64,000 nucleotides of DNA from Fodinicurvata sp. EGI_FJ10296. GTDB taxonomy: Bacteria > Pseudomonadota > Alphaproteobacteria > DSM-16000 > Inquilinaceae. Of the stretch, positions 1 through 43,778 are shown one piece after another. The translations under genes and the position numbers were made by a program. Under the pieces are notes generated by a model that made no database searches, was not told the origin of the DNA, and saw only the letters and a list, made by a program, of their open reading frames with translations. The stretch covers positions 1-64,000 of the forward strand of contig NZ_JBFCVL010000003.1 in the NCBI RefSeq assembly GCF_040712075.1, in the 5' to 3' direction. Positions within the stretch are counted from its first letter, which is position 1, and each line of letters opens with the position of its first letter.

Positions 1-376
1 GACGCCGCAAAAAATCCCCTGCCCCGGACGCAATGCAGCATGAAATGCTGCTTTGCAGAGCCGGGGCCCACACTGTCAGCGTTCTCGCGGAGCGTGTGGA
101 CCCCGGATGACGCTTCGCGTCTCCGGGGTGGAGGCAGGGGCGGATGCTGTGTCGAGAAACACAGTTGCCGAGGAAGAGATCGAGCGGTGACGCCGCAAAA
201 AATCCCCTGCCCCGGACGCAATGCAGCATGAAATGCTGCTTTGCAGAGCCGGGGCCCACACTGTCAGCGTTCTCGCGGAGCGTGTGGGCCCCGAATGTCG
301 CTTCGCTCCACCCCGGAATGGAATAGGAGGCGGATGCTGTGTCGAGAAACACAGTTGCCGGGGAGGAGGATTTGAG
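1..376. repeat. 188-bp structured tandem repeat, two copies
   Basis: Copy 1 is 1-188 and copy 2 starts at 189. Bases 1-99 and 189-287 are identical, and a second identical block is 141-170 versus 331-360 (offset 190, so a 2-bp indel lies between). Each copy folds well on paper: in copy 1, GCAGCAT (35-41) pairs with ATGCTGC (45-51) inside GCAA/TTGC (30-33/53-56); CCCCGG (22-27) can pair with CCGGGG (61-66); 61-73 can instead pair with 94-106; CCCCGGA (101-107) pairs with TCCGGGG (122-128) around GACGC/GCGTC. In copy 2 the 61-106 equivalent is a perfect 12-bp stem. The window starts inside the array, so there may be more copies upstream. It could be an interspersed intergenic element or a structured RNA; no protein-like signal was recognised. 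Confidence 0.85.
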
Positions 377-412
377 GCCCCGGCCGCGATGCAGGCCGGC
401 ACGGGTTACCGC

Positions 413-2155
413 TCAGACGCGGGGAATCAGAACGATGGTGCCGGCTTCGCCCTCGACCGACTCGTCGATCATCGCCTCGATGAACTCCATGACGGTTACG
501 GCGGTCTTCAGCGTCATGGCGTCATAGTTGTTGTTCAGATAGATCTGGCCGAAACTGCGGCGCAGCCGCTTGTCGTTGAACACCTTGACCTGTCGGACGA
601 TCGCGGGATCGGGTTCGCGCAGGATCTGTTCCGTCACCTTGGTCGACTTCTCCGGCAGCATGCCGCTCAGCGTCTCCATGGCGTCATCGGGGTCCTGCTC
701 GATGATCACGGACTTGCCGACGATGCTCGTCTTCTCGCGCTTCTTGCCGTCCGGGGTCTCGAAGACCTGGCGCCGGACCTTGAGATCGACGATGGCGAAG
801 CCGCCCCCGCCCATGCGGTGGAAAACGACCAGCGTATCGATCGGGCCGTCGCGCCGGGACGCCACCATGGTCGAGGTCGACAGGCGCAGAAGCGGCACCA
901 GTTCCGGCTGATCGCGGGTGATATTGATCCGGACATCTTCGAGATTCGCTTCGTCCTTGCGGCGCTGACGCTTGCGCGCCTCGGCCGCCCGGCGTTCGCG
1001 GTCGAAAACGTTCTTGCGCATATTGAAGCGCTCGGCATTCTCGATGATGTCGATGGCGCCGTGTTCCGCAACCTGACAGAGCGGACTGGTCTGATAGCGA
1101 TAACTGGCGCCGCCGCATTCAAACACCCGCCCGCGGGTCTTGCTGGCGTTATTGCGGTCGGTCCTGGCGACGCGGCCGACCTTCTGCAAATATTCCGCCG
1201 GTGTCATTGTGACCCGGAAATTGAGCATGTCCTGAAGGTTCGGAATATCCGTTCCCTCGCCCAGCACGTTGCAGGTCACGACCATATCCAGCGTGCCGTC
1301 GGCCAGCCCCTGCTTGATGGAGCGGCGTTCTTCGCGCGTGGCCGTGCCGTCGATCATGGTCGCCTTGATGCCGAGATCGACGAAACACCCGGCAATGTCG
1401 CGGGCGTGGCGTCGGTCGATGGCATAGACGATGGCAGTGCCCTTTTCCCGGCAGCCCATCCAGTGGCGGCCGACCCGCTCGATGACATTGGGATCGCGCA
1501 AGCCGTGGCTCTTGCCGATGGCCAGGGCTTCTTCCTGGCCCAGTTCAAGCTGTTCGAGATGCACGGGAACGATCAGCCCGTCGTCGGTGGCCTCGTCGCG
1601 GGTCATGACGCTGATGGTCTTGCCGAACATCTCCGCAACCGGCTTGCCGTCCTCGCGCAGCGGCGTCGCGCTGAGGCCGATCCGCAGCTTGGGCAGATTC
1701 TGCAGCAGCAGGCGGTGTTTGGGCGCGGGCGCGTGGTGACATTCGTCGACGAAGGCAATATCGAACGCGCCCAGCGCCTCGCGCATCTCGTCGCGCCGCG
1801 TCGGACGTTCCAGTGCCTTGATCAGCGACAGACTGTTGCCGAACACCGTATGCCCGGTCAGATCCTTCGACCAGGCGCAATACCGTGTGCTGGTCGTGTC
1901 CGCGATGCCCAGCGAATCACCGACCCACGCGAACTTTTCCTGATTCTGCTCGCTGATGTCGTCGTTGGGCGACACAATGATCGCCCGCAGATGCGGAAAG
2001 TGCCACCGGACGGCCGCCATCATGACGGTCTTTCCGGAACCCGTAGGCTTGACGACGACGCCCGCCACCTTGCGGTCTATCGCGTCGCACATCCGCTGAA
2101 CGCCGAGCTTCTGGGCGGGAGTTAGAATCAGACTGGACGGTGTCAAAGCATCCAT
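413..2155 (-). CDS. DEAD/DEAH-box superfamily 2 helicase
   Basis: A 580-residue SF2 nucleic-acid helicase or translocase of the type with a ResIII-like ATPase domain followed by a Helicase_C domain. Visible motifs: Walker A KPTGSGKT near residue 45, DECH box (VDECHHAP), motif III SATPL, and motif VI QKVGRVART. The C-terminal 200 residues after the helicase core are not assigned to a family. The start at 2155 (MDALTPSS) was chosen because the protein begins about 30 residues before Walker A and AGGTGAG lies upstream; the longer reading frame upstream looks non-coding. No methylase or specificity subunit is adjacent, so a restriction role is not supported. It reads towards the structured repeats at 1-376. 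Confidence 0.85.
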   Translation of the reverse strand: MDALTPSSLILTPAQKLGVQRMCDAIDRKVAGVVVKPTGSGKTVMMAAVRWHFPHLRAIIVSPNDDISEQNQEKFAWVGDSLGIADTTSTRYCAWSKDLTGHTVFGNSLSLIKALERPTRRDEMREALGAFDIAFVDECHHAPAPKHRLLLQNLPKLRIGLSATPLREDGKPVAEMFGKTISVMTRDEATDDGLIVPVHLEQLELGQEEALAIGKSHGLRDPNVIERVGRHWMGCREKGTAIVYAIDRRHARDIAGCFVDLGIKATMIDGTATREERRSIKQGLADGTLDMVVTCNVLGEGTDIPNLQDMLNFRVTMTPAEYLQKVGRVARTDRNNASKTRGRVFECGGASYRYQTSPLCQVAEHGAIDIIENAERFNMRKNVFDRERRAAEARKRQRRKDEANLEDVRINITRDQPELVPLLRLSTSTMVASRRDGPIDTLVVFHRMGGGGFAIVDLKVRRQVFETPDGKKREKTSIVGKSVIIEQDPDDAMETLSGMLPEKSTKVTEQILREPDPAIVRQVKVFNDKRLRRSFGQIYLNNNYDAMTLKTAVTVMEFIEAMIDESVEGEAGTIVLIPRV

Positions 2156-5872: not shown

Positions 5873-6226
5873 TCAGGTGCACGCGGTGAGCAAAAGAGGC
5901 GGCGCAAAGGTCAGAACCGTTGCCGCCAGCGCCGACAGCGCACTCCCCATGAAGACCGCCCGAAGAAAGCGGCCGGTCGCAGTGCCGTTGCCGCCTGACA
6001 GGTACAGGTGCCGGACCACCCAGCCCAGTACCCCCAGATGGACCAGCAGCACCAGAGCCATCATCAGCCGCAAAACGCCAGCGGGCCATGCGAAGGCACA
6101 GCCGAGCCCGTGCAGGCCATATAGTGCGCCAAGGGCACTGCCCCAGACCGCGAAGCCGGCCACCAGCCACCAAAGGCGCCATGGGCTGAGACCGTCGGAA
6201 TCGGAGGTGTTCCCGGTGGCGTTCAT
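5873..6226 (-). CDS. small membrane protein of the cytochrome oxidase operon
   Basis: A 117-residue hydrophobic protein with about three membrane segments after a short polar N-terminus. Its start codon overlaps the stop of the subunit I+III gene by 4 bases (ATGA), so it is translated with the oxidase. I do not recognise the family. Position and size suggest an accessory or subunit-IV-like component, but that is inference. It is the last gene of the oxidase operon. Confidence 0.7.
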   Translation of the reverse strand: MNATGNTSDSDGLSPWRLWWLVAGFAVWGSALGALYGLHGLGCAFAWPAGVLRLMMALVLLVHLGVLGWVVRHLYLSGGNGTATGRFLRAVFMGSALSALAATVLTFAPPLLLTACT

Positions 6227-8727
6227 GGCCGCACCTCCAGCGCCCCGACCAATCCGGGCAGCGACAAAACCAGCACCAGGGCGACGGCGCCGACGACGGC
6301 GGTATAGTCCGCCCACACCCGCGTCAGTCGCAGATCCAGGCGGCGGGACGGGGATATGAATCCGGCCCTCAGCCGCAGGGCGTTGCTGATCACGAAGGCA
6401 ACGCCAATTCCCGCATGCAGCGCCGCATAGGTGAGCAGGGCAGACGCGACGGCACCGAACGCGTGCTCGGTCGGAGACGGTGTTATCCCCGCGATCAACA
6501 CCATCAGCCCGGCGATCGCGGCTGCGAATGCCAGACCGCCGGCCGCCAGACGCACCGCGATCGCCGATCCATCGGCCACCGCGCGCAACGCCGAACGGGC
6601 GGACAACGCCGCGCCTGCCAGGGCGGCGACGGTCAGCGCGGCCAGAACCATGCTCGCCTGCCCGACTTCGGGCGGATCGGCTGGCGCGGTCACCCACAGA
6701 TAGAAGGTGCCGAATACCAGTGACGAGAACAGGGCGGCGTCGGCGACCAGCGTTACCATCATGGCCCACCAGGGTGGTGATCCATCGACCTGGGTATGCG
6801 GCGGCAGGGTGACACCGTGACCGACGTCAAGAGGATCAAAGTCCCGCGACAGCCCGGCGTTCTGACCGCTGTAGATGAACAGGCCGACAACCAGAAATGC
6901 GCCCGCAATAGCAAGCGGATAGACCTTGAACAGCATCGCCAGAACCACGAGCCCGGTCGCGACCGCCGTGATCAGCGGCAGAAAGGTCATTCGCGGCAGG
7001 ACGACCAGTTGGTCCGGCAGCCCCGTCGTCGCATGGACACCCAGCGTCTCCTGCCAGCCATGCCGTGTTCGGCTCAGGTATCCCTCACCTCTGGCCAGGG
7101 CCAGTGCCAGCGCCGCCGGGCGAAGATCGTCGGCCCGGCCATCGATATGCGGAATCGACGCGAACGCATAGGGTGTCGGCGGCATCGGCATCGCCCATTC
7201 AAGCGTGCCGGCGTGCCAGGGATCGCGGCGGGCCCGCCGGCCGAAACGCAGCCGGCCCAGAACATCGACCGCGAGCAGAGCAAATCCGATGGTCAGCACG
7301 AAGCCGCCCACCGATGACAGAAGGTTGAGCCCGACCCAGCCCTCGTATCCCGGATAGGTATGGATGCGCCGCGGCATGCCCAGCAGACCGGTCAGGTGCA
7401 TCAGGAAGAACGTCATGTTGAAGCCGATGAAGATCAGCCAGAAGGCCGGAATGGCCAGCCCGGGGATCGACCGCCGCCCGCTGATCAACGGCAGCCAGTA
7501 ATATACCGCCGCCAATATCGGGAACACGAATCCGCCGACGAGAACATAGTGCAGATGGGCGACGACGAAATGCGTGTCGTGGACCTGCCAGTTGAACGGC
7601 ACCATGGCCAGCATGACACCAGTCAGCCCGCCGGCCACGAAGATGAAGAAAAAGCCGAAAACATAGAGCATCGGCATGCTGCGGCGCGGCCGGCCATTCG
7701 TCAGGGTGGCGAGCCAGGCGAATATCTGCACGGCCGTCGGCACGGCAACCAGCGCCGATGCGGCAGAAAAAAAACCCAGCGACAGATGCGGGATGCCGAC
7801 CGTGAACATGTGGTGGACCCAGATGCCGAAGCTCAGGAACGCCAGGGCGACGATCGCAACGATCACGGCGCGATAGCCGATCAGCACCCGCCCCGCCATG
7901 ACCGGGATGATCGTCGACAGGGCCCCGGCCGCGGGCAGAAAGATGATGTAGACCTCGGGATGGCCGAACAGCCAGAACAGGTGCTGCCACAACAGCGGAT
8001 CGCCGCCGCGGGTGGGGTCGAAGAACGGCAAATCGAACGCGCGTTCGGTTTCCAGCAGGATCGAGCCCAGGATCAGTGGCGGAAAGCCGACGACCATCAT
8101 GCCGGCCGTCACCAGGATGTACCAGCCGAAGATCGGCATGCGGTCCAGCGACATGCCAGGCGCCCGCAGCTTCAGGATCGAGACGACCAGTTCCACCGCC
8201 AGCGTCATCGCCGAAATTTCCACGAAGGTGACGCCGAGCAGCCAGACATCGGCATTGATGCCCGGCGAATAGACATTCGACGACAGCGGCGTATACATGA
8301 ACCAGCCGCTGTCCGGCGCGACGCCCGCGATCATCGCCAGGATCAGAATGGTGCCTCCGAACAGATAGCACCAATAGCCATAGGCCGTGAGCCGGGGAAA
8401 CGCCAGATCCCGTGCGCCCAGCATCTTGGGCAGCAGATAGATCGCCATCCCCTCCAGCAGCGGGATCGCGAACAGGAACATCATGATCGTGCCGTGCATC
8501 GTGAAGATCTGGTTGTAGATCTCCGGGCCGACGAAGGCGGAATCCGGGGTCGCGAGTTGCGCGCGGATCAGCATCGCCAGCATGCCGCCGATGGCAAAGA
8601 ACACCATCGCGGTGACCATGAAGCGCAGCCCGACGACCGAGTGATTGACCGAAGCCAGCCGGGTGACGCCGGATCCGCTGCCCCAGATGGCCGATAGCGC
8701 CCGGTGCCGCTGCAGAGTACCGCTCAT
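6223..8727 (-). CDS. cytochrome c oxidase subunit I+III fusion
   Basis: An 834-residue fusion of the catalytic haem-copper subunit (residues about 20-560) with a subunit III-like domain (about 630-834). Redox ligands are all present: His78 for low-spin haem, His256 with Tyr260 in GHPEVY (CuB and cross-linked Tyr), His305-His306 for CuB, His391 for haem a3 and His393 for haem a. The HPEVY motif indicates an A1-type oxidase. It reduces O2 to water and pumps protons in the inner membrane with the CuA subunit encoded just upstream. The ribosome-binding site GGAAG lies in the 17-bp repeat at 8733-8783. In the C-terminal part the usual subunit III signature is diverged. Confidence 0.95.
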   Translation of the reverse strand: MSGTLQRHRALSAIWGSGSGVTRLASVNHSVVGLRFMVTAMVFFAIGGMLAMLIRAQLATPDSAFVGPEIYNQIFTMHGTIMMFLFAIPLLEGMAIYLLPKMLGARDLAFPRLTAYGYWCYLFGGTILILAMIAGVAPDSGWFMYTPLSSNVYSPGINADVWLLGVTFVEISAMTLAVELVVSILKLRAPGMSLDRMPIFGWYILVTAGMMVVGFPPLILGSILLETERAFDLPFFDPTRGGDPLLWQHLFWLFGHPEVYIIFLPAAGALSTIIPVMAGRVLIGYRAVIVAIVALAFLSFGIWVHHMFTVGIPHLSLGFFSAASALVAVPTAVQIFAWLATLTNGRPRRSMPMLYVFGFFFIFVAGGLTGVMLAMVPFNWQVHDTHFVVAHLHYVLVGGFVFPILAAVYYWLPLISGRRSIPGLAIPAFWLIFIGFNMTFFLMHLTGLLGMPRRIHTYPGYEGWVGLNLLSSVGGFVLTIGFALLAVDVLGRLRFGRRARRDPWHAGTLEWAMPMPPTPYAFASIPHIDGRADDLRPAALALALARGEGYLSRTRHGWQETLGVHATTGLPDQLVVLPRMTFLPLITAVATGLVVLAMLFKVYPLAIAGAFLVVGLFIYSGQNAGLSRDFDPLDVGHGVTLPPHTQVDGSPPWWAMMVTLVADAALFSSLVFGTFYLWVTAPADPPEVGQASMVLAALTVAALAGAALSARSALRAVADGSAIAVRLAAGGLAFAAAIAGLMVLIAGITPSPTEHAFGAVASALLTYAALHAGIGVAFVISNALRLRAGFISPSRRLDLRLTRVWADYTAVVGAVALVLVLSLPGLVGALEVRP

Positions 8728-8732
8728 TGGTT

Positions 8733-8783
8733 GGCTTCCATCAGGGGGTGGCTTCCATCAGGGGGCGGCCTCCATCAGGGCGT
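8733..8783. repeat. 17-bp tandem repeat x3 at the ctaC/ctaD junction
   Basis: Units 8733-8749, 8750-8766 and 8767-8783; the first two differ at one base and the third at three. On the minus strand each unit contains CTGATGGA(A/G)GCC, so each carries a TGA, an ATG and a GGAAG/GGAGG-like sequence. The ctaC stop (8758-8760) lies in the middle unit and the ctaD ribosome-binding site in the unit nearest ctaD. Because 17 is not a multiple of three, copy number changes would alter the ctaC C-terminus. Confidence 0.85.
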
Positions 8784-43301: not shown

Positions 43302-43433
43302 AGATGAATAACCCCGGCAAGTGCCCCGGATTGCACAACGCGTCCTGACCGCCCGCCACGTGCGCGGCCGCTGTCAGGGCATGGTCGTACCGCGTTCGCA
43401 CCCCATAGGGCAAGATTTCCTGCATGGCGCCTA

Positions 43434-43463
43434 TTGCGGACCGCCCCCCGGAACGACTATATA
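43434..43463 (+). promoter_or_regulatory. candidate ssrA promoter
   Basis: TTGCGG (43434-43439) and TATATA (43458-43463) with an 18-base spacer directly upstream of the tmRNA; start near 43470. A good fit for a strong stable-RNA promoter. Confidence 0.6.
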
Positions 43464-43469
43464 ACATCT

Positions 43470-43778
43470 GTGTCCGGTCGCACCGGACTATGGCGATAAA
43501 CGCTGTATGGAATAAGCCCTGCGGACCCGGGGGCAGTACCCGGCGCCTCCACCAACCTTCATGGGGGCGAACCAGGATCGACGCGGGTGGTAAAGATGCA
43601 GTTTTCGCCCGGCATGGCACCACCGTTATCGGGCTTTTCAAGCAGTTGCGAATGACAACACTGCTGAAGGTTATGCTGTCGCTGCGTAACGCAGTTCCGG
43701 CTAACCACCTCTAATTCCTGACGTCCTTCAAGCGGCAGGTGGGGTCCGGGGCACCTAGCAACAGAACGCCCCACTTTA
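43470..43778 (+). ncRNA. permuted two-piece tmRNA (alphaproteobacterial type)
   Basis: The acceptor piece comes first and ends CGCCTCCACCA at 43544-43554, containing the T-arm-like CCGGGGGCAGTACCCGG. After a short linker the coding piece begins GGGGGCGAACCAGG at 43563, and its GGGGGCG pairs with CGCCUCC of the acceptor. The tag frame is 43648-43689. The 3' part has the pseudoknot-like GTGGGG (43739-43744)/CCCCAC (43769-43774). The gene order acceptor-then-coding is the circular permutation found in alphaproteobacteria. A hairpin TCCGGT/ACCGGA (43473-43487) is at the 5' end of the precursor. Ends are approximate. Confidence 0.95.
43648..43689 (+). other. tmRNA proteolysis-tag reading frame
   Basis: Encodes ANDNTAEGYAVAA followed by TAA. 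The ending AVAA is a ClpXP degron and AND(N) at the start is the SspB-binding part; both fit alphaproteobacterial tags. Confidence 0.95.

Follow-up and report, generated by a model that had tools for sequence, protein, structure and literature searches.

The window, by which we mean the whole 64,000-nucleotide stretch that was analysed, opens at the first base of contig C3 with two units of a hairpin-rich repeat that extend over positions 1 to 390 (Table 1). The tandem copies reported in an earlier note on this DNA were confirmed: positions 1 to 99 are exactly repeated at 189 to 287 (99 bases), with A100 against G288 as the first mismatch, and a second exact block pairs 139 to 170 with 329 to 360 (32 bases, 2 longer than the 30 first reported). 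The copies are offset by 188 bases at first and by 190 toward their ends. In 50 mononucleotide shuffles of the stretch, repeats reached at most 10 bases, so the 99-base match is not due to chance. CCCCGG/CCGGGG arms lie at 22-27, 61-66, 101-106, and 123-128, and hairpin B opens with the CCA tail of hairpin A and closes with TGG, the inverted tail of hairpin C.

Table 1. Features of the tandem repeat pair and its neighbor at the start of the window
Feature	Positions	Strand	Basis
Module P, 5' linker GACGCCGCAAAAAATCCCCTG, incomplete at contig edge	1..21	+	Module annotation
Copy 1 hairpin A: outer CCCCGG/CCGGGG, inner GCAA/TTGC and GCAGCAT/ATGCTGC	22..66	+	Fold, pair counts
Copy 1 hairpin B: structured spacer CCACAC...GTGTGG between dimer halves	67..99	+	Fold, pair counts
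Copy 1 hairpin C: CCCCGGA/TCCGGGG, inner GACGC-TTC-GCGTC	101..128	+	Fold, pair counts
Copy 1 hairpin D: GGCGGATGCTGTGT...ACACAGTTGCCG	139..170	+	Fold, pair counts, exact repeat
Copy 2 module P	189..209	+	Module annotation, exact repeat
Copy 2 hairpin A, same as copy 1	210..254	+	Alignment, exact repeat
Copy 2 spacer hairpin B, same as copy 1	255..287	+	Alignment, fold, exact repeat
Copy 2 hairpin C, degraded right arm	289..316	+	Alignment, fold, module annotation
Copy 2 hairpin D, same as copy 1	329..360	+	Alignment, exact repeat
Repeat 3' edge, 23 bases short of the 3' end of the neighboring helicase gene	361..390	+	Shared-segment extent, gene calls
Neighboring gene, ResIII/Helicase_C protein, 3' end toward repeats, outside the element	413..2092	-	

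Contig C13 terminates, at the unit boundary, in a 187-base copy of the unit that has 2 mismatches. The array probably comprises three or more units and was split between C13 and C3 by the assembler. Because several contigs end in or near these repeats (the ends of C13 and C8 and the starts of C3 and C12), the copy number of tandem arrays is probably underestimated.

Three other features of the window were recorded. The 834-amino-acid gene at 6223-8727 (minus strand) resembles by eye a fused cytochrome oxidase subunit I/III, and its relatives (80 kept, 56 to 70% identity) come from scattered taxa, among them Paraburkholderia, Novosphingobium, Bradyrhizobium, and a Geminicoccaceae MAG, a distribution that would fit transfer. 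A 17-bp tandem repeat of 2.9 copies lies at the boundary of two genes (8732-8780), and an alphaproteobacterial tmRNA, overlapped by a permuted-tmRNA match, was found with Rfam at 43430-43775 (plus strand).

Both copies of the unit fold more stably than any of 200 dinucleotide shuffles (z = -5.8 and -5.4), and strong folding is seen on both strands. Conservation of the structure was assessed in an alignment of 26 units (A1), which were picked from the genome matches and exclude the near-duplicate copy on C13, units of the E-Q-X type described below, and partial units. In the local hairpins, 90.9% of the 1,082 stem cells were paired, and 61 cells were double changed versus 21.2 in shuffles, a count reached in none of 500 shuffles; when the structure, which was derived from the fold of one member, was slid by 1 to 3 columns, pairing fell to 34 to 48% and double-changed cells to 5 to 14. 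Pairs with a double change (9 versus 7.8) and pair types (28 versus 30.6) were no more numerous than in the shuffles, so much of the excess in cells may represent a few ancestral subtypes that were copied repeatedly. Among the main stems tested, double changes were confined to the inner stems of hairpins A and C, with none in hairpin D or in hairpin B's outer stem; an inner stem of hairpin B had 9 double-changed cells versus 4.2 in shuffles. Departures over all stems were G-U in 30 cases and A-C in 27 (pair 143-162, a constitutive G-U, being left out of the count), and this near equality gives no sign of selection on one transcribed strand. Hairpin C taken alone leaned toward G-U (15 versus 5; P = 0.04, uncorrected).

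The symmetry of the hairpins might also have arisen by DNA template switching between the two arms during replication, with no selection and with the repeats themselves inert. Double-sided changes are frequent while departures of the G-U and A-C types are similar in number, and one study reports that template switching creates and maintains hairpins (PMC8794818). As a full account we consider this rather unlikely, since it leaves the dispersal and the gene-end location of the repeats unexplained; as the source of the symmetry it is compatible with the explanation that we favor below.

The earlier note had proposed that the CCCCGG/CCGGGG pairings form mutually exclusive stems, as in a switch or attenuator, and that copy 2 keeps the long stem perfect (12 bp), its A-to-G change at 288 restoring a pair that is a C-A mismatch in copy 1. 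Alternative pairings do exist, because CCCCGG/CCGGGG occurs in both hairpins, and the predicted minimum-energy form of copy 2 is the long stem, because its hairpin C is damaged: the right arm is altered and pairing is lost, so copy 2 is partly degraded rather than improved. The folding and covariation checks that the note had called for favored the local hairpins A and C, which are where the compensatory changes lie, and went against the alternative long stem, which had 1 double-changed cell versus 1.2 in shuffles. The supposedly restored pair forms in just 3 of 25 copies and fails in the other 22, and the copies come after genes, with none in divergent gaps. We regard an RNA switch or attenuator that uses mutually exclusive stems as extremely improbable. 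The suggestion of a noncoding RNA array likewise lacks support, given the near parity of G-U and A-C departures, the lack of any Rfam match within 1-390 at the gathering score (3 matches in the window), and the lack of promoter- or terminator-like sites (hairpin plus T run) within 1-376 in a simple scan of 1-600.

A search of the whole genome with the unit, as the earlier note had advised, was run and found that the unit is not unique: the 376 bases gave 56 BLAST matches in the 4.83-Mb genome. A covariance model built from the 26-unit alignment gave 106 genome matches at an E value of 1e-3, merging to 74 places (among 150 scored candidates), with 37 units of at least 90 bits and 12 places that hold two or more units of at least 60 bits. 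A simple recent local duplication, which the 99 identical bases common to the two copies might suggest, has next to no probability, as the unit is present in 74 places and just the tandem pairing seen here could be local. As the full explanation, local duplication is refuted by the dispersal that both BLAST and the covariance model detect. The note's other suggestion, that of a family of mobile or structured elements, is supported by this dispersal, by the compensatory changes in the hairpins, and by the absence of the unit from relatives at one locus. At the elements, repeated stretches span 68 to 875 bases and are common to up to 35 other fetched regions; elsewhere in the fetched regions, shared segments reach at most 5 other regions. 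At the DNA level, 0 of 40 other genomes matched in a first look (17 scored candidates per genome). Plasmid and phage records gave no matches to the unit, and an exact 30-mer of hairpin D had no match in a collection of genome contigs in which the source genome is possibly absent.

Annotation of 40 clusters by local alignment revealed that the modules recur in the order (F or P)-A-B-C-(D or G). The unit is a dimer of the head-head type, made up of a REP-like hairpin A and an inverted hairpin C with B as the spacer, often followed by D. A second composite, E-Q-X-B'-C-D, is sometimes nested with main units, and some clusters are partial or irregular (e.g., L012, L037, L038, L041, and L044). Units may stand in tandem (four in L011) or be mutually inverted (L014, L030, L035, and L042), and we read L018 and L027 as containing nested units. 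Module D overlaps C or an inverted A by 4 bases, CCGG. In the four loci with mutually inverted units, D meets the inverted A at CCGG despite differing A sequences, as if the same junction had been formed repeatedly.

The two unit types differ in their divergence between loci, with E-Q-X units being 84 to 98% identical (maximum, 98.4%; median, 90%; 28 pairs) and main units 63 to 95% identical (maximum, 95.1%; median, 77%; 342 pairs). This split suggests that part of the family spread recently and that the rest is older. At a median identity of 77%, the main units are mostly old, which we count against a reading of the repeats as mobile DNA.

Genomic context was read for 40 clusters with genes called by a home-made codon model; 4 clusters at contig edges were dropped, and about 30 weaker places lie outside the count. 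The 36 clusters with called genes on both sides comprised 20 in convergent gaps, 16 in co-directional gaps, and none in divergent gaps (P = 3.9e-7 by repeat-free intergenic bases; by gaps, P = 7e-4 in a Fisher test). Co-directional copies lay nearer the 3' end of the upstream gene in 13 of 16 cases (P = 0.02) and were oriented opposite to the genes in 12 of 15 (P = 0.035, a weak trend). The overlap of any cluster with a called gene was at most 55 bases. Placement upstream of a regulated gene, as in a riboswitch or attenuator, was also considered and rejected, with 0 of 36 clusters in divergent gaps and 13 of 16 co-directional copies closer to the end of the upstream gene.

This location brings in the main rival to the mobile-DNA reading, namely, a selected 3'-end role in which the hairpins act as a 3'-UTR device on both strands, stabilizing upstream mRNAs or stopping convergent read-through. 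The absence from divergent gaps (0 of 36), the strong folding of both strands, and the G-U lean of hairpin C (15 versus 5) agree with such a device, and E. coli REPs act in this way according to PMC5082802. However, purifying loss elsewhere would produce the gene-end bias just as well, the units of the window contain no terminator-like site, G-U departures hardly outnumber A-C departures over all stems, and the unit is missing from relatives at the yggS-ldt junction. We hold this role to be possible but doubtful.

At that junction, the source genome carries an A-B-C-D unit in a 219-nt gap (243 nt when counted from yggS residue 229). Among 16 relatives from the same taxonomic family, yggS is present in 14, and ldt adjoins it convergently in 11 of these; the yggS-ldt distance in these 11, taken by hand from coordinates between yggS residue 228-230 and the aligned ldt end, is 4 to 101 nt in 10 and 220 nt in one. 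The covariance model had no matches in the yggS loci of the 14 relatives. From the one locus compared, it is most likely that the unit arrived here after the genera split. In relative G013 (L152, 1281-1500), an unlike palindromic cluster, CCCCTCACCC...GGGTGAGGGG, fills the same junction in a 220-nt gap, as if 3'-3' junctions collected unrelated palindromes.

A search for a mobilizing enzyme of the RAYT/Y1_Tnp type (PF01797) gave no matches in the source genome; the same search detected it in 5 of 14 control genomes. Among 289 genomes of the class, Y1_Tnp was carried by 5 of 12 genomes with related elements versus 55 of 277 others, a difference that is not significant (P = 0.14) and in which carriers of the element are undercounted (10 candidates scored per genome). 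No clean target-site duplication was seen, and several bases distinguish the hairpin C copies on either side of the nested units in L018 and L027. A miniature element (MITE) that descends from an insertion sequence of the DDE type, with terminal inverted repeats, could likewise be short, dispersed, noncoding, and missing from relatives at one locus. However, the module ends vary and no consistent terminal inverted repeats or target-site duplications were visible by eye, and we judge this origin very improbable.

We conclude with good confidence that positions 1 to 390 hold two units of a dispersed, noncoding, mosaic family of palindromes that is REP/BIME-like and is chiefly mobile DNA. We hypothesize that the family is an untagged, lineage-specific branch of the CGTC REPs of alphaproteobacteria and that it spread as nonautonomous DNA hairpins with the help of an enzyme now absent or not identified. 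Clusters may have grown by tandem duplication and by nesting at CCGG junctions, and the repeats may have persisted at gene 3' ends owing to the loss of insertions from promoters and genes. Any effects on neighboring genes, such as attenuating read-through or protecting the 3' ends of mRNAs, would be secondary.

It would be a bolder proposal that a REP lineage lost the recognition tag still present in its relatives yet went on amplifying, to dozens of copies, in a tag-independent manner; we think this unlikely. Template switching guided by the hairpins, or recombination between CCGG arms that units share, would be examples of such a route. If true, it would mean that a family of palindromic repeats can expand with no transposase of its own and none borrowed. 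The source genome is a useful case in that it combines an untagged mosaic family with tagged elements in the sister genus and with no Y1 transposase found; the family was detected in no other genome tested at the DNA level, and some units are 98% identical between loci. For the window itself, what results is an annotation of repetitive DNA of an ordinary kind.

Mosaic arrays of inverted palindromes are well known from the REP/BIME elements of E. coli. These belong to the RAYT-associated GTAG superfamily. They are located at gene 3' ends (PMC3733652), and the present family is like them in both its mosaic inverted palindromes and its location. Unlike them, it has no Y1 transposase found in the source genome, and its resemblance is to the CGTC-type elements. 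The Br-REP1 and Br-REP2 elements of Bradyrhizobium are also multi-hairpin and intergenic; in PMC5082802, Br-REPs are placed in 3'-UTRs, one of them in the overlapping 3'-UTRs of convergent genes. Their consensus sequences, as printed, appear different from that of the present family. A search within the open-licence PMC literature brought up no paper that we recognized as describing this sequence family.

Relatives of the family were sought with the covariance model, which matched 5 of 6 genomes of the sister genus (g3) and 0 of 10 other genomes of the same taxonomic family (150 candidates scored in each); the search at order level covered the same 17 genomes as that at family level. In the class, it matched at least 12 of 289 genomes including the source, that is, at least 11 of 288 others (10 candidates scored in each). 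The six g3 loci examined are dimers with outer CGTCAT...ATGACG ends; many of the class loci have CGTC or TGTC ends, L057 and L063 have no tag, and L053 has an A hairpin nearly identical to that of the present family. Matches to tagged dimers with similar A hairpins score 44 to 60 bits, and these are short palindromes, so convergence is possible. A tagged-REP pattern matched 41 times in G014, 38 times in G016, 5 to 22 times in the other four g3 genomes, and once in the source genome; a separate tagged-REP pattern scan of the source genome gave 5 matches, and by eye the continuous pairing in each was no longer than 6 pairs.

According to Di Nocera et al. (2013; PMC3733652), CGTC REPs occur mostly in alphaproteobacteria as inverted dimers with CCA tails; they are dispersed, lie between genes that are convergent or co-directional, and are found close to gene 3' ends. 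They are described there as having no dedicated transposase and a mode of spread that is stated to be open. The present family is like them in its inverted pairs of palindromes with CCA tails pointing inward (A plus inverted C with spacer B, the HH arrangement), its dispersal, its location at gene ends (convergent or co-directional in 36 of 36 clusters with two called neighbors), and its lack of a dedicated transposase. The CCA tail follows A in 26 of 26 units, and the inverted TGG precedes C in 19 of 26. Spacers of CGTC REPs may contain stem-loops (PMC3733652), and spacer B is likewise structured; the A hairpin is close to that of the tagged elements in the sister genus and in the class. Unlike CGTC REPs, the family has no tag, longer two-part stems, an extra hairpin D, and a second composite. 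A CGTC, TGTC, or CCTC tag stands before A in 1 of 26 units and GACG after C in 0 of 26, with GACG, GACA, or GAGG anywhere within 12 columns after C in 7 of 26. The CGTC-type stem has 8 to 9 bp, a loop of 4 to 5 nt, and AT first pairs; here hairpin C has 7 + 5 pairs with a 3-nt loop and hairpin A has 6 + 4 + 7 pairs, and the first pairs are C-G. The family is grouped or in tandem at 12 places, whereas clusters of CGTC REPs are called rare in PMC3733652. That paper also assigns Rickettsia RPE-4 and RPE-6 and Neisseria dRS3 to the CGTC superfamily and describes intragenic units as common in R. conorii, whereas overlap with called genes is slight here. Judged on sequence features, the present family is REP-like in its working and probably descended from CGTC REPs, and we do not file it as a member of the superfamily.
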